Positions 8,951-21,219 of a stretch of DNA of 23,043 nt are shown piece by piece. The stretch is from a virus. The position numbers were made by a program, and so were the translations under genes. The stretch lies in IMG/VR virus record IMGVR_UViG_3300023116_005074, positions 1 through 23,043 of that record; one strand, written 5' to 3'. The notes below the pieces were generated by a model. The model had not been told where the DNA came from. It made no database searches and saw only the letters and a program-made list of their open reading frames with translations. Numbering within the stretch: position 1 is the stretch's first letter; each line of letters starts with the position of its first letter.

Positions 8951-9272
8951 GATTCAGAAAGCATTTGATGAATTAAATGCTAAGTACTTATATGTTTTGA
9001 AGCGATTGCAAAAAGCATACAAGTTACTAGATGAGAAACCAGAGACAGTTACAGTAGAAAAAGCGGCAACAGGAGATTTACGAGAAGCGGCTAGGCTTTT
9101 GGCAACTTCCGAATTTAATAAGGAAGATTTAAGCGAAGACGAAATTTATCAGATGCTTAAATCACAATCTGAGGAAGAAGTAAAAAGAAAGATAGGTTTT
9201 TGGGCAATGCCACTACCCAAAGACGAAGAAACAAAAACAAACACAAGCACAGTTTATATAGGTAAAAAATGA
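8937..9272 (+). CDS. Small coiled-coil protein, paralogue of its neighbour
   Basis: A 111-aa protein overlapping the preceding gene by 14 bases and clpX by 4. The N-terminal 30 residues form a helix similar to the start of the 8720 protein (a shared IQxAxDELxxKY-like pattern). The rest is charged, with DLSEDEIYQML and a C-terminal GFWAMPLPKDE. No enzymatic motif is seen. Its position directly before clpX allows a role as adaptor or substrate, but that is a guess. Confidence 0.7.
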   Translation: MKKNEIQKAFDELNAKYLYVLKRLQKAYKLLDEKPETVTVEKAATGDLREAARLLATSEFNKEDLSEDEIYQMLKSQSEEEVKRKIGFWAMPLPKDEETKTNTSTVYIGKK

Positions 9273-10528
9273 CAGATGACAAATCGCTACACTGCAACTT
9301 TTGCGGGAAAAGTAGAGACCAAGTAGAAAAACTAATTGCAGGACCTAATGTTTATATTTGTGACGAATGCATTTCTATCAGTTATAATATTGTACAAAAA
9401 GATCAAGATGATGTAACATCGTTCAATAGAGATGACATCCCGACTCCAACAGAAATACATCATTTTTTAAATGAACATGTCATAGGAAATGATGATGCTA
9501 AAAGTATTCTTAGCACTTGTGCATACAATCATTATAAAAGAATATTATCTAGCACCGAAGTAGAAATAGAAAAATCTAATGTATTATTAGTAGGCCCAAC
9601 TGGTTCTGGTAAAACACTTATGGCTAAAACTTTAGCAAAAAAATTAAATGTGCCTTTTGCTATTGCAGATGCTACTACATTAACTGAAGCAGGTTATGTA
9701 GGCGAAGATGTAGAAACTGTACTAGAAAGATTACTTGCACTTGCTGACTATGATGTTGAACTTGCTCAAAATGGTATTGTTTATATAGATGAAATAGATA
9801 AGAAAGCCCGTAGGAGTGAATCTAACACTGCTACACGCGATGTTAGTGGTGAGGGTGTTCAACAAGCACTACTAAGATTAATAGAAGGTACTACTGCAAA
9901 AGTTAGAATATCAAACGGTAAAAAAATGAATGACGATTATGTAGAGTTTGATACTACAAATACTTTGTTTATTTTAGGTGGCGCATTTGTTGGATTAGAT
10001 AAGGATGTCACAAAAAGAGTAAAGAAAAAATCTGCTATAGGATTTAAATCAAATATAGATAATATTGCAAAAGATAAATCATATTTAAAATATATAACAT
10101 CAGACGATATTGTATCTTTTGGACTGTTACCTGAACTAGTAGGTAGATTACCTATTATAGCAACACTTGAAAATCTTGGTAAAGATGACCTTAAAAAGGT
10201 GTTGACAAATGTTAAAAATAGTATTATAATACAAATAAGTGAAATATTAAAGTTTGATAATATTGAACTTGTATTAGGCGATGACTTTATTGATACTGTA
10301 GCAGATAAAGCATCAAAAATTGATTTAGGTGCTAGAGCACTTAAAACAATAATAGAAACTGCATTGTTTTATATTATGTATAATGCACCAGAACTTAGTA
10401 AGAAAGGCGTGGTAAAAATAATATATAATTCTTACCCTACAACAGAAAACTTCCCTGAAGTAGTGTACAATGACGGCAAGACGGAGGTACTAAAACAATT
10501 TAAATTTTACAGAGGTGAAAATGAATAA
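9269..10528 (+). CDS. clpX: ClpX ATP-dependent unfoldase
   Basis: A 419-aa full-length ClpX, the AAA+ unfoldase that feeds substrates to ClpP. The zinc-binding domain has C9, C12, C31 and C34. The AAA+ core has Walker A GPTGSGKT (109-116), the pore-1 loop GYVGED (142-147), Walker B IVYIDE (170-175), an arginine-finger region GRLP (292-295) and sensor-2 GAR (354-356). The ClpP-docking IGF tripeptide is kept (257-259), so it should bind host ClpP; no clpP is seen in this window. It is about as long as bacterial ClpX (E. coli 424), with a diverged, strongly AT-biased sequence. It overlaps the gene before it and bS21 after it. It probably redirects host ClpP to phage-chosen substrates. Confidence 0.96.
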   Translation: MTDDKSLHCNFCGKSRDQVEKLIAGPNVYICDECISISYNIVQKDQDDVTSFNRDDIPTPTEIHHFLNEHVIGNDDAKSILSTCAYNHYKRILSSTEVEIEKSNVLLVGPTGSGKTLMAKTLAKKLNVPFAIADATTLTEAGYVGEDVETVLERLLALADYDVELAQNGIVYIDEIDKKARRSESNTATRDVSGEGVQQALLRLIEGTTAKVRISNGKKMNDDYVEFDTTNTLFILGGAFVGLDKDVTKRVKKKSAIGFKSNIDNIAKDKSYLKYITSDDIVSFGLLPELVGRLPIIATLENLGKDDLKKVLTNVKNSIIIQISEILKFDNIELVLGDDFIDTVADKASKIDLGARALKTIIETALFYIMYNAPELSKKGVVKIIYNSYPTTENFPEVVYNDGKTEVLKQFKFYRGENE

Positions 10529-10916
10529 AGGCAAATGGCAAGGCAATAGGAATACTAAAAATTCCTTTAACAGGAAAAAACAATTTGATAAGGATCAACC
10601 TAGAGATTCAGGTTGTAAAATTGTTGTTCGTAATGGTGATGTAAACGGAGCGATCCGTAGACTTAAAAAAGTTCTAGAACGAGACAACAGGCAAAAAGAA
10701 CTTGCTAAAAGAGAATACTATGAAAAACCTTCTGTAAAAAGAAAAAGAATGAAAGCCGCCGCAGTCAAACGAACACAAAAGAAAACGGACGATATGATAG
10801 CAAAAGGCGAATGGATGCCTTTGCCGCCCGTTGGACAAAAGCATCTCAAAGGCAAAAGATCAAAACGCAAAGTTGAGATGATGAAAGAGAAAGTAAATCG
10901 CTTACGAGGCAAGTAA
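10521..10916 (+). CDS. rpsU: Ribosomal protein bS21 homologue with N- and C-terminal extensions
   Basis: A 131-aa protein whose residues 33-88 match bS21: an IVVRNGDVNGAIRRLKK start, then the REYYEKPSVKRKR block and AAAVKR. bS21 sits on the 30S platform beside the anti-Shine-Dalgarno end of 16S rRNA and affects initiation. Bacterial bS21 is around 60-75 residues. This one adds about 32 basic residues in front and about 43 behind, including GEWMPLPPVGQKHLKGK. The start is taken as the ATG at 10521, with GAGG six to seven bases upstream; a GTG at 10515 is possible. It overlaps the clpX stop. Phage bS21 is known, for example in pelagiphage HTVC008M, and is thought to exchange into host ribosomes. 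Confidence 0.9.
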   Translation: MNKGKWQGNRNTKNSFNRKKQFDKDQPRDSGCKIVVRNGDVNGAIRRLKKVLERDNRQKELAKREYYEKPSVKRKRMKAAAVKRTQKKTDDMIAKGEWMPLPPVGQKHLKGKRSKRKVEMMKEKVNRLRGK

Positions 10917-11689
10917 TGAAAATTGCAGTAGTAAGTGGAGGATTTGACCCACTTCACTCAGGTCATATTAATCTATTAGAATCAGCCGCCGCTTATGGCG
11001 ACAAACTTGTAGTGCTACTCAACAGTGATGAATGGCTTACAAGTAAGAAAGGCAGACCATTTATGCCTTTTGAAGAAAGAGCAACCATCTTAGAAAGAAT
11101 GCACATGGTGTCAAACCTATATGGTGTAGATGATAAAGATGGTACAGTAACAGCAGGACTTAAACAAGTTCGCGATGCATTCGGACATGATCATGATTAT
11201 GTATTCTGTAACGGAGGTGATAGAGGAAAAGATAACATACCCGAAATGCAAGTAGAAGGATACGAGTTTGTATTCTCAGTTGGCGGAGACCACAAAGCCA
11301 ACAGCAGTAGTTGGATATTAAAGGAATGGAAATATCCTACAGAACGCAGAGTTTGGGGCGAGTTTAGTGACCTGTTTCAAGACGATGTAGTTCGTGTCAA
11401 AGAACTGATAATTGAACCTGGAAAAGGTATCAGTTATCAAAGACATTTTAAAAGAAGTGAAATGTGGTTTGTAAGCAAGGGCATGATAAACATCAAGCAC
11501 AGTTTTAGTTCGCCGGAGCAACATCAAATACACACTATACAGAAAGATGGATTCTTTCATGTAAAGCAAGGAGACTGGCATCAAGCATTTAATCCTTTTG
11601 ATGAACCATGTCATATTATAGAAATACAGTATGGTGAAGAAACCAACGAACAAGACATAGAGCGTCTTGAATATTACGACGGAGAATAA
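10916..11689 (+). CDS. Nucleotidyltransferase-cupin fusion
   Basis: A 257-aa two-domain protein. Residues 1-145 form a cytidylyltransferase-like Rossmann domain: GGFDPLHSGHINLL with the HxGH nucleotide-binding motif (14-17), FEERATIL, and SVGGDHKANSSSWIL near its end. This resembles glycerol-3-phosphate cytidylyltransferase or the HldE/RfaE adenylyltransferase domain. Residues about 155-245 are a cupin with the ManC/type II phosphomannose isomerase-like pattern: IEPGKGISYQRHFKRSEMWFV, then GDWHQAFNPFDEPCHIIEIQYG. The fusion suggests making and tailoring an activated sugar or polyol, perhaps for surface glycans. It joins its neighbours by 1-bp overlaps (TAATG), so it is translationally coupled. 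Confidence 0.8.
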   Translation: MKIAVVSGGFDPLHSGHINLLESAAAYGDKLVVLLNSDEWLTSKKGRPFMPFEERATILERMHMVSNLYGVDDKDGTVTAGLKQVRDAFGHDHDYVFCNGGDRGKDNIPEMQVEGYEFVFSVGGDHKANSSSWILKEWKYPTERRVWGEFSDLFQDDVVRVKELIIEPGKGISYQRHFKRSEMWFVSKGMINIKHSFSSPEQHQIHTIQKDGFFHVKQGDWHQAFNPFDEPCHIIEIQYGEETNEQDIERLEYYDGE

Positions 11690-12135
11690 TGGAGTTGCGA
11701 GAACTTAATACAAAAAAAGTATGCGAAATTTTAAATAAGATCGTAGAAATGGAAATGGCTGGAGTAGTTAGATATGCCCATAGTTCACTTATGGTCAGTG
11801 GACCTAACAGAATACCTATTGTAGCATTTTTACAAGAACAAGCAAACGAAAGTTTAGTACATGCACTACAAGCAGGCGAATACATCACAGGATTTGATGG
11901 CCACCCAAGCCAAAAGATTACACCTATTGAAGAAAATCATAATCACAGTGTTAAACAAATTTTAGAGGAAAGTCTAGAGCATGAAATGAAGGCCGTTGCC
12001 GCATATAAAGAATTACTAATGGAAGTTGCTGATGCAAGTATTATGCTTGAAGAATATGCCAGAGGTCAAATTGGCATGGAAGAACAACATGCTATTGAAA
12101 TTCGTAAAATGCTCAAAGACTATGCAGAGTGTTAA
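11689..12135 (+). CDS. Ferritin-like diiron protein (bacterioferritin/Dps-like)
   Basis: A 148-aa four-helix-bundle protein. Candidate diiron ligands are spaced as in a ferritin-like family I recall from proteobacteria: E20/E22 in helix 1, E54 and H58 (NESLVHALQAGEYIT), E97/E99 (LEESLEHEMKAV), and E131/E132 with H134 (GMEEQHAIEI). GFDGHPS between helices 2 and 3 matches bacterioferritin-type turns. It would oxidise and store iron or protect DNA from Fenton chemistry. The ATG overlaps the previous stop by 1 base. Together with ferredoxin, SUF and peroxiredoxin genes in the window, it points to control of iron during infection. Whether it forms a 24-mer or 12-mer shell is not visible. Confidence 0.82.
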   Translation: MELRELNTKKVCEILNKIVEMEMAGVVRYAHSSLMVSGPNRIPIVAFLQEQANESLVHALQAGEYITGFDGHPSQKITPIEENHNHSVKQILEESLEHEMKAVAAYKELLMEVADASIMLEEYARGQIGMEEQHAIEIRKMLKDYAEC

Positions 12136-15358: not shown

Positions 15359-15799
15359 ATGGTAACAAAGCAACAATATCGTATCACGACCGATACACTT
15401 TCCCCACTTTTTAAAGCCTCAATTGGCTTCGACAACTTAGTAAATGAGTTCTTTAACGAACCTTCATTTGTTAATACATCTGGATATCCTCCATACAACA
15501 TTAGTAAGGCCGAAGACGATGTCTACGAAATTACTCTTGCAGTAGCAGGATTTAAAAAGACTGACATTGAAGTAGAAATGGAAGATGGTAATCTTAAAAT
15601 TTCTGGTAAGTCAGATGTTATTGACGAAGGTAGAGAATATCTTTATAAAGGAATTGCAGAGAGAAACTTTGTAAGAACTTTTAAACTTGCCGAATATGTG
15701 GAAGTTAAAGATGCTAAACTTGAAGACGGCATCTTGAGAGTTTCATTGTTTAGGAATGTTCCTGAAGCACTGAAGCCACAAAAAATTACTATTAAGTAA
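15359..15799 (+). CDS. Small heat-shock protein Hsp20 (IbpA-like)
   Basis: A 146-aa class A small heat-shock protein that holds unfolded proteins in a refoldable state. The N-terminal region has the IbpA-like GFDNLVNEFF, then YPPYNISKAEDDVYEIT begins the alpha-crystallin domain (about 43-135). LAVAGFKKTDIEVEMEDGNL, the YLYKGIAERNF block and LEDGILRVSLFR follow, and the C-terminal anchoring I-x-I motif is ITIK. AAGGAG six bases before the ATG is a strong site that may be masked by the leader hairpin. Phage Hsp20 is known from T4-like cyanophages and marine phages, where it is thought to help virion assembly. A strong terminator follows the gene. Confidence 0.93.
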   Translation: MVTKQQYRITTDTLSPLFKASIGFDNLVNEFFNEPSFVNTSGYPPYNISKAEDDVYEITLAVAGFKKTDIEVEMEDGNLKISGKSDVIDEGREYLYKGIAERNFVRTFKLAEYVEVKDAKLEDGILRVSLFRNVPEALKPQKITIK

Positions 15800-15806
15800 A
15801 GTAGTC

Positions 15807-15814
15807 GGTAAATA
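15807..15814 (+). promoter_or_regulatory. Possible late-type promoter upstream of bL33
   Basis: GGTAAATA lies between the hsp20 stop and its terminator. A start near 15820 would place the terminator stem at the 5' end of the bL33 mRNA. The motif could be chance. Confidence 0.4.
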
Positions 15815-15817
15815 AGT

Positions 15818-15846
15818 GGGAGGGGACAAAACCCCCTCCCTTTTTT
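15818..15846 (+). terminator. Strong intrinsic terminator after hsp20
   Basis: GGGAGGGG (15818-15825) pairs perfectly with CCCCTCCC (15833-15840) around a 7-nt loop, followed by six T's (15841-15846). The bL33 ATG starts two bases after the T-run. Confidence 0.92.
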
Positions 15847-15848
15847 AT

Positions 15849-16055
15849 ATGGCAAGCAAAACTACAAAGAAAAGAACTAAAGTATATTTAATACCTGAGA
15901 GCGAAACCAGAGATAGTCACACCTATCACTACACCGCTGAAAAAACTAAGACTATGATTACTGAAAACAGGAAATTGAGATTTAAAAAATATAATCCTGT
16001 TAAAAGAAAACATGAATGGTTTATTGAAGCAAAACTTCCGCCTCACAGCAAGTAA
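15849..16055 (+). CDS. rpmG: Ribosomal protein bL33 homologue
   Basis: A 68-aa basic protein. After an N-terminal MASKTTKKRTKVYLIPESE it has HTYHYTAEKTKTMITENRKL and then FKKYNPVKRKHEWFIEAKLP. The latter matches the bL33 pattern 'KLExKKYDPVxRxHVxYxEAK', and the earlier part corresponds to 'KIxLVSSAxTGxFYxTxKN'. bL33 lies near the E site of the 50S subunit. It has no zinc cysteines, as in the C- form of bL33. The start at 15849 has no Shine-Dalgarno sequence and comes directly after a terminator. An upstream in-frame GTG (15816) would run through the terminator and is rejected. I know of bS21 in phages as common; bL33 appears much rarer. Confidence 0.8.
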   Translation: MASKTTKKRTKVYLIPESETRDSHTYHYTAEKTKTMITENRKLRFKKYNPVKRKHEWFIEAKLPPHSK

Positions 16056-16058
16056 TAC

Positions 16059-16087
16059 TTGACATACTTAAAGTTTGGCAATATAAT
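16059..16087 (+). promoter_or_regulatory. Host sigma70-type promoter of the clpS-suf operon
   Basis: TTGACA (16059-16064), a 17-nt spacer, TATAAT (16082-16087): perfect consensus. A start near 16094 gives a short leader with AGGAAGGA before the clpS ATG. Confidence 0.87.
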
Positions 16088-16116: not shown

Positions 16117-16422
16117 ATGGCCAGAGAGCAAACTAGAACAAAGTCCAAGACCAAATCGGAAATCTTGTTTCCTAACAGATACAATGTCGTTGTGCTGAAT
16201 GATGATTTTACACCTATGGAATTTGTTATTCAATTACTAGTCGAAATCTTCAACAGGACTTTAGAAGAAGCAAAAAATATCACGATCGAAATACATGAAG
16301 ACGGTCGAGGTATTGCAGGCACATACAGTCACGAAATAGCAGAACAAAAAACATCTGAATCGGTGATGATATCAAGGCACAATGGCCATCCTCTTAAAAT
16401 CATTACTGAGAAGATGCAGTGA
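16117..16422 (+). CDS. clpS: ClpS, N-end-rule adaptor
   Basis: A 101-aa adaptor that hands N-degron substrates to Clp unfoldases. [20 protein letters not shown] matches the ClpS core, with N28, D29 and D30 lining the pocket, the T32-P33-M34 gate region, and H60 (IEIH) corresponding to H66 of E. coli ClpS. The C-terminal HPLKIITEK matches the HPL block. The N-terminal extension ([15 protein letters not shown]) that would enter the ClpA pore is present. The ribosome binding site is good and the gene heads the early operon; its TGA overlaps the GTG of sufB by 4 bases. Classical ClpS partners ClpA, while this phage carries ClpX; host ClpA may be the partner. Confidence 0.93.
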
Positions 16423-17867
16423 CCGAATACAGAGAGTTAGACAACAAATATACAGCAGGTTTTAGCACACAGGTCGAAAGTGAAGATTTTGAACCTGGAC
16501 TTAATGCTGATGTTGTTAAACGACTCAGTGCCCTCAAAAATGAACCTGGATGGGTTACAGAATTTAGACTTAATGCATTTGAACATTTACAAAAAATCAA
16601 AGAACCCGATTGGGCTAATGTAGATTATGCACCAATTGACTACCAAGCATTAAGTTATTACTCAGCACCCAAGTTTAGAAACAAAGAAGATATACCACAA
16701 GAAATATTAGACACCTTTGATAAACTTGGTGTACCTCTACATGAGCGAGATGCACTATTGGGTGTCGAAGAACAAGACACAAAAATTATTCCCACAGTAG
16801 CAGTTGACGCAGTATTTGATAGTGTTAGTATTGCTACAACATTTCAAGACGAATTACAAAAGCATGGCATCATATTTTGCAGTATAAGTGAAGCCATACA
16901 AGATCATCCAGAACTCGTAAAAGAGTATTTAGGTAGTGTTGTTCCTTCCAAAGACAACTACTTTGCTTGCCTAAATAGTGCTGTCTTTACTGACGGCACA
17001 TTCTGTTATATTCCACCGGGTGTTAAATGCCCAATGGAATTAAACACATACTTCCGCATCAATGCTAGAAACACTGGGCAATTTGAACGCACTTTGATTA
17101 TAGCAGATGCGGATAGTTATGTCAGTTACTTGGAAGGTTGTACTGCACCAGCATATGATGAAAACACATTGCATGCCGCTGTTGTAGAACTTGTAGCACA
17201 TGATAGAGCAGAGATCAAATATTCAACAGTACAAAACTGGTACCCAGGAGATGAGAATGGTGTAGGTGGTGTACTAAACTTTGTTACAAAGAGAGGTATA
17301 TGTAAAGGTGAAAGTTCAAAGATTAGTTGGACCCAAGTTGAGACAGGCAGTGCTGTTACTTGGAAATATCCCTCCTGTATATTACGAGGCGACAATAGTG
17401 TTGGTGAGTTTTACAGTGTTGCGGTAACCAAAGGAAAACAACAAGCAGACACAGGAACAAAAATGTTCCATGTAGGCAAGAATACCAAAAGCACCATCAT
17501 AAGCAAAGGTATTAGTTTTGGTGATAGCTCAAACACATACAGAGGTATGGTTAGAATTAATAGTGGTGCTAGTAATAGTAGAAACTTTACACAATGTGAT
17601 AGTTTAATGCTTGATAACAGCAGAGCAATTACCATACCTGTAATTTCACAACTTAACGATAATAGTATAGTAGAGCACGAAGCAACAACAGGTAAACTAT
17701 CAGAAGAAGCAATGTACTATTTGCAAAGCAGAGGATTAGACGAAGAGAACGCAGTAAATTGTGTTGTGAATGGTTTTTGTAAAGATGTATTTCAAAAGTT
17801 ACCACTTGAATTTGCCGCAGAAGCAAACAAATTATTAAGTGTTACACTTGAAGGAGCAGTAGGATAA
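16419..17867 (+). CDS. sufB: SufB, Fe-S scaffold subunit
   Basis: A 482-aa subunit of the SufBC2D complex on which Fe-S clusters are built. It is full length compared with bacterial SufB (about 480-495). Hallmark blocks are [62 protein letters not shown]-like [16 protein letters not shown] (the conserved cysteine), [18 protein letters not shown] and [16 protein letters not shown]. The GTG start overlaps clpS by 4 bases, and the stop overlaps the sufC ATG by 1 base. All expected conserved cysteines that I can identify are kept, suggesting an active protein. Confidence 0.97.
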
Positions 17868-18592
17868 TGTTAGTTACACAAGAGTTCACAGTAAAAGCAG
17901 AAGGCAAAACAATCTTAAATGATTTGCATTTAGATTTTGGTCCTGGCATTCATATTATAATGGGTCCTAATGGCATTGGTAAAAGTACACTAGCTCATGC
18001 GTTAATGGGTAATCCCAAGTACACAGTATCAGGAGCCGCACAGTTAGACGGTAAAGATATACTTGCATTAGAGCCGCACGAAAGAGCTCGAGCAGGATTG
18101 TTTGTAAGTTTTCAAAATCCTACTCCTATTGCAGGCATAAGCAATTTTCAATTTGTTAAAGAATCTTTAATACAGCAAGAAAAAATGACTAACTCAATGT
18201 CCGACATTACTCAAGTACTTAATGATTATAAAGACTACAGTGATGTATTTGGTTTACCATCAGACTTTCACAAAAAACAATTAAATGTAGAAGCAAGTGG
18301 CGGTGAGAAAAAGAAAAACGAAATTATACAGATGCTGTTATCTAAACCTAAGGTTTCTATTTTAGATGAACCGGATAGTGGACTGGACATTGATTCTATC
18401 AATCAGTTAAGCAAACAACTAAAAACATTTGCATTAGAAAATGATAACAGAACAGTAATTATTATAACACACTATGAAAAATTAATTGACTCGTTATCAC
18501 CGGATACTGTTACAATATTAAGAAAAGATAAAGTAGAAAAAGGCGATGTAGAGTTGGCATACAAAGTATTTGAGGATGGCTTTGGTGAATAG
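17867..18592 (+). CDS. sufC: SufC, ABC-type ATPase of the SUF complex
   Basis: A 241-aa ATPase that drives conformational change in SufBC2D. Walker A is GPNGIGKST (33-41), the Q-loop Q83 lies in SFQNPTP, the signature ASGGEKKKNE (143-152) is the SufC variant, and Walker B is VSILDEPDSGLDID (163-176). THYEKLI holds the switch histidine. The length is close to E. coli SufC (248). The start overlaps the sufB stop (TAATG); the 3' end overlaps sufD by 17 bases or less. Confidence 0.97.
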   Translation: MLVTQEFTVKAEGKTILNDLHLDFGPGIHIIMGPNGIGKSTLAHALMGNPKYTVSGAAQLDGKDILALEPHERARAGLFVSFQNPTPIAGISNFQFVKESLIQQEKMTNSMSDITQVLNDYKDYSDVFGLPSDFHKKQLNVEASGGEKKKNEIIQMLLSKPKVSILDEPDSGLDIDSINQLSKQLKTFALENDNRTVIIITHYEKLIDSLSPDTVTILRKDKVEKGDVELAYKVFEDGFGE

Positions 18593-19748
18593 TGCAAAAT
18601 TCAAAATAGGAGATTTACCTAAAATACTTAAACATGGCTTTAGAAATAATCTAATGACTCACAGATTTAAAAAAGAAACCATGGCATTGTCTGTGGCTGA
18701 ATACTTACCTAGTTTAAATATTGCTTTTGAAAAGTTACACAAATATAAAAATACTAACATTAATAGTTTTCTAAACAAAGAAGTGATAACTCCTAACAAC
18801 AATAGAACACAGTTTCATGATCATGTCTCTGAAGCTCAACCTATAGATTTTCATATTAGAGACGGAGCAGTAATACAAGGCTTTAATGCAAAAATAAAAC
18901 ATGCTTTTAAAGTTCATGATTTATATAGCAGTGTTAGTACAATGCAAAAATATCAAAGTTTTTTTGAACCGAATAATGATATATCAGATTTAGGTTTTTT
19001 AAATACTATAATGCCTCTGGCAATTAAAATGTCTAATTATAAAAGAGAAAACTTAGTTTTAAAGTATGATGTAGAGGCTAACGATTTACATTGTGACACT
19101 ATTGTTATAGATGTTGGTAAAAATAGTAAATTAGATTTAACAGAGTTAATTGGTGATAGCGGAAGTCATATATTAAATGTTTTTTATATACTTAGAGAAA
19201 ATTCTAGCCTTACACTAAACAGAAACATCACTAATAGTAATACATATATAAATTCAAAAGTTATACAAGAACCTGGTAGTAGATTTGCTATGTCATGTAC
19301 GACAGGAGATATCGATTTTAGTTATCAAAATATAGATGTTGACTCGTACCACAATTGCCATACTTACATTGACAATAGGAATGCGTTAACCGGAGATAGA
19401 ATAAACAATTTTGTTGTAAACATTAATCACCTAGGCAGAGAAAGTTTTAGTAATATAGATTCAAAGACTATAGTAGACGACAACTCAATAAATTATTTTA
19501 AAGGTAACATTTTTATTGATAAAGAAGCAGAAAATATCAATGCTCACATGTTAAATAAAAATTTGCAAATTAGTAAAAAAGCAAAAGTATATACAGAGCC
19601 TACATTAGATATATTGAACAAAGAGGTGGTATGTTCACATGGATGTACTATAAGTAACATAGATGAGAATGAATTATATTATTTACAAACTAAAGGATTA
19701 GACAAAACTCAATCTATTAATATACTTAAGGATGCATTTTTAAAATGA
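18576..19748 (+). CDS. sufD: SufD-like scaffold subunit, diverged
   Basis: About 390 aa. The C-terminal part is clearly SufD: TEPTLDILNKEVVCSHGCTI (written here only to 20 residues) with the Cys and His (CSHG, about residues 353-356) that match the conserved SufD sites, then IDENELYYLQTKGLD. The N-terminal two thirds are poorly recognisable and rich in N, K and I, and the gene appears more AT-rich than sufB and sufC. The start is uncertain: ATG 18576, or GTG 18585, which has GAGG nine bases upstream; TTG 18570 is less likely. Its stop overlaps sufS by 4 bases. It is placed as SufD by C-terminal motif and gene order. Confidence 0.9.
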   Translation: MALVNSAKFKIGDLPKILKHGFRNNLMTHRFKKETMALSVAEYLPSLNIAFEKLHKYKNTNINSFLNKEVITPNNNRTQFHDHVSEAQPIDFHIRDGAVIQGFNAKIKHAFKVHDLYSSVSTMQKYQSFFEPNNDISDLGFLNTIMPLAIKMSNYKRENLVLKYDVEANDLHCDTIVIDVGKNSKLDLTELIGDSGSHILNVFYILRENSSLTLNRNITNSNTYINSKVIQEPGSRFAMSCTTGDIDFSYQNIDVDSYHNCHTYIDNRNALTGDRINNFVVNINHLGRESFSNIDSKTIVDDNSINYFKGNIFIDKEAENINAHMLNKNLQISKKAKVYTEPTLDILNKEVVCSHGCTISNIDENELYYLQTKGLDKTQSINILKDAFLK

Positions 19749-20923
19749 AGGATTATTTTAAAACATTAATAAACAACCCGGAACTGGCATACTTTGATAG
19801 TGCGGCAAGCACACAAACATTTCAAGGTGTGGTTAACCGTATAACACAATATTATGAAAACGAAAGATGTAATATACATCGAGGTGACTTTCCTCAAAGT
19901 ATCAAAGTAACAGACGAATGTGAAGAAGCAAGAGAAAGTGTTGCAAAATTAATAAATGCTAATGCTGAACAAATTATGTTTACCTCCGGAGCCACAGATG
20001 GATTAAACATGGTTGCTAAGTGGTGTGAAAATGCCAAAGTTGTAATTATCAGTGAGGCCGAACACAGTGCAAACATACTACCTTGGATAGCACAAGGTAG
20101 AACAATAGACAATGGCAGATTGGTTGTGTTGCCGTTGTCAAGTAGAGGAGTAGTAGATCCAGATGTTGCTAATGAAACATTTAAAAAACATCCTGATGCT
20201 GTTCTAAGTTTAATATCAACTAGCAATGTAAACGGACTTACTAACGATTTAAAAACAATCATAGGCATGGCCCATGAGCATGGCATACCGGTGTGTATAG
20301 ATGCATGTCAAACATTAAGCAGTCACAAGATTGATGTGGAAGATCTTAAACCAGACTGGTTAGTTGCTAGTGGCCATAAAATGTTTGGTCCTACTGGTAT
20401 AGGATTTTTATATAGTAGATCAAGTTACAATGACTTTAGACCAATTAGATATGGTGGCGGTACTGTAACCAGTTACAACTTTCATGGTTCAATCGATTTT
20501 TATAATGGTCCCGTTAAACATGAGGCAGGAACTCCTAACATAGCAGGTATACTAGGACTAGGTGTTGCGGCAGAATGGATTAATTATATTGGCTATGATG
20601 AAATAAAATCTAGACTAGTTACTGTTCAGAGTTGGCTTGACGGTTATGGTTTATTTAACATAAGTGGCATGCAGTTAGTTCATCCGGGTGACGAAGTAAG
20701 AAATGTGTTCAGTTTTACAACTGATGTACACCCTACAGACATTAGTACATACTTAGGGTTAGACAATATTGCAACTAGAGTCGGTAAAGTATGTGCTCAC
20801 CCAATAGTAAACAAATACGGTAACGGTGCTATACTTAGAATAAGCACACACATATATAACGACGAACAGGATTGTAAAAAGTTAGTAAATTCATTATGTC
20901 AAACGATACAGAAATTAAGTTAG
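19745..20923 (+). CDS. sufS: SufS, class II cysteine desulfurase
   Basis: A 392-aa PLP enzyme that takes sulfur from cysteine. Motifs are LAYFDSAASTQ at the N-terminus, H107 in EAEHSAN above the PLP ring, D186/Q189 in CIDACQT, the PLP lysine K212 in SGHKMFGPTG, HEAGTPNIAGI, the catalytic C350 in RVGKVCAHP and R365 in LRIS. The length is close to SufS (E. coli 406). Class II desulfurases usually need SufE or SufU for sulfur transfer; none is seen in this window, so a host partner may serve. It overlaps sufD by 4 and sufT by 28 bases. Confidence 0.96.
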   Translation: MKDYFKTLINNPELAYFDSAASTQTFQGVVNRITQYYENERCNIHRGDFPQSIKVTDECEEARESVAKLINANAEQIMFTSGATDGLNMVAKWCENAKVVIISEAEHSANILPWIAQGRTIDNGRLVVLPLSSRGVVDPDVANETFKKHPDAVLSLISTSNVNGLTNDLKTIIGMAHEHGIPVCIDACQTLSSHKIDVEDLKPDWLVASGHKMFGPTGIGFLYSRSSYNDFRPIRYGGGTVTSYNFHGSIDFYNGPVKHEAGTPNIAGILGLGVAAEWINYIGYDEIKSRLVTVQSWLDGYGLFNISGMQLVHPGDEVRNVFSFTTDVHPTDISTYLGLDNIATRVGKVCAHPIVNKYGNGAILRISTHIYNDEQDCKKLVNSLCQTIQKLS

Positions 20924-21219
20924 AAGATAAGGTACGCAGTAATTTGCGTAGAGTTATTGATCCTGAAATAGGAATCAACATTGTTGACCTCGGCTTGATA
21001 TATGATATTAATGTAAACGAAGAAAATGATGTACAAGTTTTAATGACATTAACTGCACCAAATTGCCCTTACGGTGATATGATTATTATGGAAACCGAGT
21101 TTGCAGTACGCAGTGTTAAAGATGTAAATTTAGTAAAAATAAATTTAACATTTGATCCTCCGTGGAATCCGGATCAACATGTAACTGATGAAGCCAAATA
21201 TCAAATGGGTATATTATAA
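20896..21219 (+). CDS. sufT: SufT / DUF59 (MIP18-like) Fe-S maturation protein
   Basis: A 107-aa DUF59 protein. RRVIDPEIGINIVDLGLIYD and the VLMTLTAPNCPYGDMI block with its single conserved Cys (C56), followed by LTFDPPWNP, are diagnostic. SufT proteins help Fe-S cluster transfer to targets and are often encoded last in alphaproteobacterial suf operons before an A-type carrier. The ATG lies inside sufS (28-bp overlap). Paralogues such as PaaD share the fold, but the operon context favours SufT. Confidence 0.92.
   Translation: MSNDTEIKLEDKVRSNLRRVIDPEIGINIVDLGLIYDINVNEENDVQVLMTLTAPNCPYGDMIIMETEFAVRSVKDVNLVKINLTFDPPWNPDQHVTDEAKYQMGIL

Follow-up and report, generated by a model that had tools for sequence, protein, structure and literature searches.

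A ribosomal protein bL33 subfamily common to marine T4-type phages and one part of SAR86

The locus

The window analyzed here is a 23,043-nucleotide stretch of viral DNA (IMG/VR record IMGVR_UViG_3300023116_005074). Between the genes for a small heat-shock protein and a ClpS adaptor, it holds a short open reading frame whose translation is MASKTTKKRTKVYLIPESETRDSHTYHYTAEKTKTMITENRKLRFKKYNPVKRKHEWFIEAKLPPHSK, and this is the only reading frame of the window to match the bL33 family PF00471. The features considered below are the following:

9269-10528: ClpX-like protein with a cysteine-rich N-terminus
10515..10916, + strand: bS21 homologue of 133 aa with extended ends, the second ribosomal protein of the phage (PF01165 2e-14, phrog_21469)
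15359..15799, + strand: Hsp20 small heat-shock protein, upstream of bL33 (PF00011 2.3e-18)
15809..15814, + strand: TAAATA, resembling the T4-type late promoter core TATAAATA, 40 nt before the bL33 ATG (consensus match only)
15818..15840, + strand: G+C-rich hairpin followed by TTTTTT, terminator-like, ending 8 nt before the bL33 ATG
15849..16055, + strand: bL33 homologue of the SAR86/phage type, 68 aa from ATG to TAA, no cysteines
16059..16087, + strand: TTGACA-17-TATAAT, a perfect sigma-70 consensus directly behind bL33 and before clpS-suf (consensus match only)
16117..16422, + strand: ClpS adaptor, downstream of bL33 (PF02617 1.5e-26)
16419-21219: complete-looking SUF set (SufB, SufC, SufD, SufS and a SufT-like protein)

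A secure but divergent bL33 homologue

Taken as a single sequence, the protein stays below every curated bL33 cut-off (PF00471: E = 3.6e-4, 21.3 bits for a cut-off of 25; TIGR01023: 20.2 bits for 23.95; NF001860: 21.9 bits for 50), although such cut-offs are annotation filters and not biological definitions, and SAR86 members of the same subfamily fall some above and others below them. The family profile search proposed in the preliminary description was thus sub-threshold for the single sequence, but a profile of 17 viral relatives matched bL33 chains of solved ribosomes in the PDB with E-values down to 4e-6. In addition, every one of the 38 sequences in a wider alignment matched PF00471 (best 6e-7), and the window protein scored 29.0 bits against a profile of 30 canonical gammaproteobacterial bL33s, for which the best of ~20,000 shuffled versions of the protein reached 14.9 bits. 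On these three grounds the open reading frame is a secure bL33 homologue, as the preliminary description had proposed.

Several finer points of that description need adjustment. The match to bL33 is real but covers residues 11/22-62, a somewhat longer stretch than the C-terminal two thirds first suggested. Zinc cysteines are indeed missing, which is unremarkable since canonical gammaproteobacterial bL33s, like those of SAR86, also lack cysteine. Finally, the N-terminus does differ from canonical bL33, but the same segment is found in the sole bL33 of many SAR86 genomes and is hence no phage specialization; a longer loop is likewise common to the window protein and the sole bL33 of these SAR86 genomes, as is a PPH tail.

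Structure prediction, also proposed at the outset, points the same way. The AlphaFold2 model built from the wider alignment (mean pLDDT 73, compared with 59 for an earlier model) has strands at residues 10-16, 28-32, 44-49 and 54-61, and its top 50 Foldseek matches are all chains of ribosome structures, many of them bL33 chains also found by sequence. Its best PDB matches are bL33 of bacterial and mitochondrial ribosomes (target TM ~0.7, E-values of 2e-3 to 1e-2, modest because the protein is small). The protein is thus predicted to have the bL33 fold, a small antiparallel beta-sheet domain. A fold search of BFVD with the same model returned nothing useful.

Viral relatives and phage type

Relatives of the window bL33 were recovered from 30 viral contigs in a first scan and 111 in a second, the best 80 of the 111 being kept for further analysis; INPHARED phages gave no tblastn match to the protein at E <= 1, and megablast with the window returned no match. 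Across these relatives, the segment IPE.E.R..HTYHY and an LP.H.K tail are strongly conserved (columns invariant or near-invariant in alignment A2), and the window protein carries both the segment and the P.H tail. The ratio of non-synonymous to synonymous changes is low (median dN/dS of 0.11 among the viral pairs where it was measurable), which corresponds to purifying selection and indicates that the viral protein is used.

The window itself includes no T4-type hallmark gene, and a search for the gp23 capsid family (PF07068), run without a positive control, gave no match. Two long contigs with a bL33 relative (G022 and G032, 110 and 130 kb) are more informative: one encodes sheath, tube, terminase, DnaB and NrdA, the other a clamp loader, and both share with the window the gene order UvdE, membrane protein, ClpX, nucleotidyltransferase, SufBCDS. 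The phage lineage is a T4-type myovirus, its hallmark genes being known from these two relatives. The immediate neighbors of bL33 vary by phage group, with Hsp20 and ClpS in the group of the window and terminase, glycosyltransferase, nuclease or PTPS elsewhere. The co-occurrence of bS21 and bL33 in one phage, highlighted in the preliminary description, is confirmed by a clear PF01165 match and recurs in several relatives: bS21 is present in 4 of the 30 viral records with bL33, three of which come from one close group.

The phage-type bL33 in SAR86

A pattern scan of cellular genomes, with each of 84,980 species represented once, yielded 99 relatives. The best 80 of these 99 are all SAR86 or lie in SAR86 gene contexts, under record titles that read SAR86 or unspecific gammaproteobacterial or proteobacterial bins, plus two odd ones. 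Bins labeled "Rickettsiales" and "Euryarchaeota" (L164, L173) hold a phage-type bL33 in SAR86 gene contexts and are probably misbinned. Within a 274-genome sample of the class to which SAR86 belongs, the type occurs in two genomes only, both of the SAR86 order; after these two, E-values fall from 1e-36 to 1e-8. Marine T4-type phages and a subset of SAR86 share this distinct bL33 subfamily. Since the cellular relatives found for so unusual a type are confined to SAR86, a component of the ribosome has been exchanged between phages and bacteria. The SAR86 chromosomal proteins (e.g., CP097973, CP097968) are about 70-79% identical to the phage protein, with the same N-terminal segment and PPH tail, but differ in being cellular, single-copy, placed in other gene contexts and grouped in a clade of their own.

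The cellular-looking genes present here (suf, clpX, hsp20, peroxiredoxin) could also be read as a sign that a SAR86 chromosomal fragment was mistaken for viral DNA. This reading is refuted, and we give it next to no weight: the same gene order stands on contigs of 110-130 kb that also encode sheath, terminase, tube and DnaB, viral and SAR86 loci have no flanking gene family in common except bL33, and a search of 31 SAR86 genomes with the phage SufB gave no match.

The SAR86 order was represented by 61 genomes. The phage-type bL33 (called at A1 E < 1e-35) is the only type in 21 of them and the canonical bL33 the only type in 30; none carries both, and 10 carry neither. Eight of these last 10 could be placed on an RpoB tree and all fall among phage-type genomes, so that missing data are the likely cause. 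In the eight SAR86 genomes checked for it, the phage-type protein is the sole intact PF00471 match. Gene position tells a similar story: canonical bL33 adjoins the bL28 gene rpmB wherever its locus was read, in SAR86 (30 of 30) as in other Gammaproteobacteria, whereas rpmB has no adjoining bL33 in the three phage-type SAR86 genomes whose rpmB locus was read, and on a complete phage-type chromosome a different gene abuts rpmB at the position of rpmG. The phage-type gene does not follow rpmB, as bL33 does elsewhere, but lies away from it in two main contexts. Because it is the sole bL33 in 21 of the 61 genomes and never accompanies the canonical one, the phage-type protein is, judged by gene content, the ribosomal bL33 of these living cells. 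On the RpoB tree, one branch (95/94) separates phage-type from canonical genomes, which suggests that one SAR86 lineage swapped its canonical bL33 for the type shared with phages; the simplest history, with this split read without a SAR86 root, is one replacement in the ancestor of part of SAR86.

These counts also bear on whether the phage protein works in ribosomes at all. Its diverged N-terminus and tail and its Pfam score under the cut-off would fit an RNA-binding bL33 derivative with another role, or a decoy that inactivates ribosomes. We consider this unlikely, as 21 SAR86 genomes have a bL33 with these very features and no other, and the viral protein is under purifying selection.

Direction of transfer

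In an unrooted tree, viral and SAR86 bL33s lie on the two sides of one branch (94/94). When the tree is rooted on canonical bL33, the SAR86 clade (97/93) lies inside the viral sequences, and these are monophyletic in 1% of bootstrap replicates, but the approximately unbiased (AU) test does not reject viral monophyly (p = 0.325), and the alignment of this short protein comprises 67 columns with a root branch of about 2.5 changes per site. Viral pairs are also more diverse than SAR86 pairs (median pN of 0.16 vs. 0.06). No phage gene flanks bL33 at the SAR86 loci, and the absence of flanking families in common with viral loci other than bL33 itself speaks against prophage-borne copies.

The rooted nesting, the greater viral diversity and the ectopic SAR86 locus together make a phage-to-host direction only somewhat favored. 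The subfamily would then have arisen in phages and reached SAR86 in a single capture, made by the ancestor of one part of the group, the canonical rpmG beside rpmB being lost afterwards, a history to which we give an even chance and which concerns origin, being compatible with the function proposed below. It accounts for an rpmB without rpmG, and no other cellular source was found among the best 80 of 99 relatives or in the 274-genome class sample; against it stand the AU result, the length of the root branch and the lack of phage genes around the SAR86 copies. That a marine-phage bL33 was captured by this ancestor and ousted the native gene, such that the ribosomes of this part of SAR86 now use a phage-derived protein, may be so, at odds slightly short of even.

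In the opposite history, an ancestral SAR86 relocated and rapidly diverged its own bL33, which phages acquired later, once or a few times. Auxiliary genes usually move this way, and transfer in this direction has been proposed for the cyanophage PhiMa05 (PMC13157829); the history needs one change on the unrooted SAR86-viral split, and the AU test does not reject it. However, the host must first have relocated and extremely diverged an otherwise conservative protein, and the rooted tree prefers the reverse nesting. We regard it as a tentative but serious alternative.

Sequence signals and proposed role in infection

The T4-type late promoter is TATAAATA. When the 70 nt upstream of the gene were compared across viral relatives (46 distinct regions), 20 contained TAAATA, against a mean of 3.8 and a maximum of 11 in mononucleotide shuffles. 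The motif is often followed by a hairpin: folding z-scores are <= -3 in 20 of the 46 regions, and a similarly placed hairpin is found in about 20 relatives. The sequence of the hairpin varies while its structure recurs among the 46 viral relatives, and the Shine-Dalgarno signal before the bL33 ATG is slight. Downstream, the sigma-70 consensus ahead of clpS-suf is possibly an early promoter.

bL33 is a loosely bound, exchangeable ribosomal protein that contacts the E-site tRNA, and viral bS21 and bL12 enter E. coli 70S ribosomes (Mizuno et al., 2019; PMC6375957); phage bS21 has been linked to late replication and expression (PMC9723584). Our main reading, to which we assign a probability of roughly two in three, is that the bL33 shared by T4-type phages and part of SAR86 is made during infection, probably late, and most likely substitutes for bL33 in the large ribosomal subunit (50S) of the host. 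There it would occupy the usual bL33 position close to the E-site tRNA, either together with the host copy or instead of it, while phage bS21 would act in parallel on the 30S; new or remodeled ribosomes would thereby be kept working for phage protein synthesis during host gene shut-off. We infer late expression and incorporation from the exchangeability of bL33, the late role of phage bS21 and the TAAATA leaders, and a selective benefit is presumed likewise. The strongest support for a ribosomal function comes from the gene content of SAR86 cells that have this type and no other bL33, and so concerns the SAR86 copy. We count against this explanation that the TAAATA signal is a match to a consensus, that the hairpin looks like a terminator too, that the single protein lies below the curated family cut-offs, and that the SAR86 host comes from bL33 alone.

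Comparison with known phage ribosomal proteins

The preliminary impression that few if any phage bL33s had been well described did not hold. Mizuno et al. (2019; PMC6375957) reported bL33 in more than 10 aquatic viral contigs from metaviromes, and it is also known from the Microcystis jumbo cyanophage PhiMa05 (2026; PMC13157829). As in our data, the former study found bL33 on viral contigs that are almost only aquatic and proposed virus-host transfers, and its set probably overlaps ours; the parts of that paper drawn on here describe neither a SAR86 subfamily or replacement of a canonical host gene, nor a phage combining bL33, bS21 and a SUF cluster. PhiMa05 likewise carries bL33 together with other ribosomal proteins, and related prophages hold the sole copies of some host translation genes, a related precedent. 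It differs in having six ribosomal proteins of Vampirovibrio type in a prophage context, whereas in the present case the protein is of SAR86 type, the phages are of T4 type, and the host gene stands by itself on the chromosome, not in a prophage. The bS21 of Bacteroidetes phages (Chen et al., 2022; PMC9723584) matches the presumed host and is tied to late replication, and bS21 is encoded here too, but it is a small-subunit, initiation-linked protein, unlike bL33 at the 50S E site. Phage bL33 as such was thus already known, and a subfamily shared with SAR86 together with rpmG loss was not found described in the open literature.

Ribosomal proteins are usually held to be vertically inherited core genes, with viral copies as one-way loans from hosts. 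A SAR86 branch that shares a phage bL33 subfamily and has lost the canonical gene contrasts with this view, and offers a natural setting in which to ask whether ribosomal proteins of a host can be replaced by those of phages.

Host and accessory genes

SAR86 is an abundant ocean bacterial group from which, as of a 2017 study (PMC5332604), no viruses had been isolated, and bL33 may provide a clue to its phages. From this protein alone, SAR86 is a probable host. Neither SufB nor bS21 added support: phage SufB, without a match in the 31 SAR86 genomes, has matches in 133 of 229 gammaproteobacterial genomes (58-68% identity), and the phage bS21 resembles that of other Gammaproteobacteria slightly more than SAR86 bS21. 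Either SAR86 is the host and receives from the phage a SUF system of which it has none, or the host is another gammaproteobacterium.

Other genes of the window include a cytidylyltransferase-like domain fused to a cupin/mannose-6-phosphate isomerase C-terminal domain (10916-11689), which is kept in relatives, and a ferritin-like domain protein (11689-12135) in the same phage as SUF, ferredoxin and peroxiredoxin genes. The joint presence of a ClpX-like protein and ClpS hints at redirected host proteolysis. No tRNA gene was found in the window, while related phage contigs encode tRNA-Thr (tgt; L192, 12283-12438) and tRNA-Glu (ttc; L200, 4936-5010).
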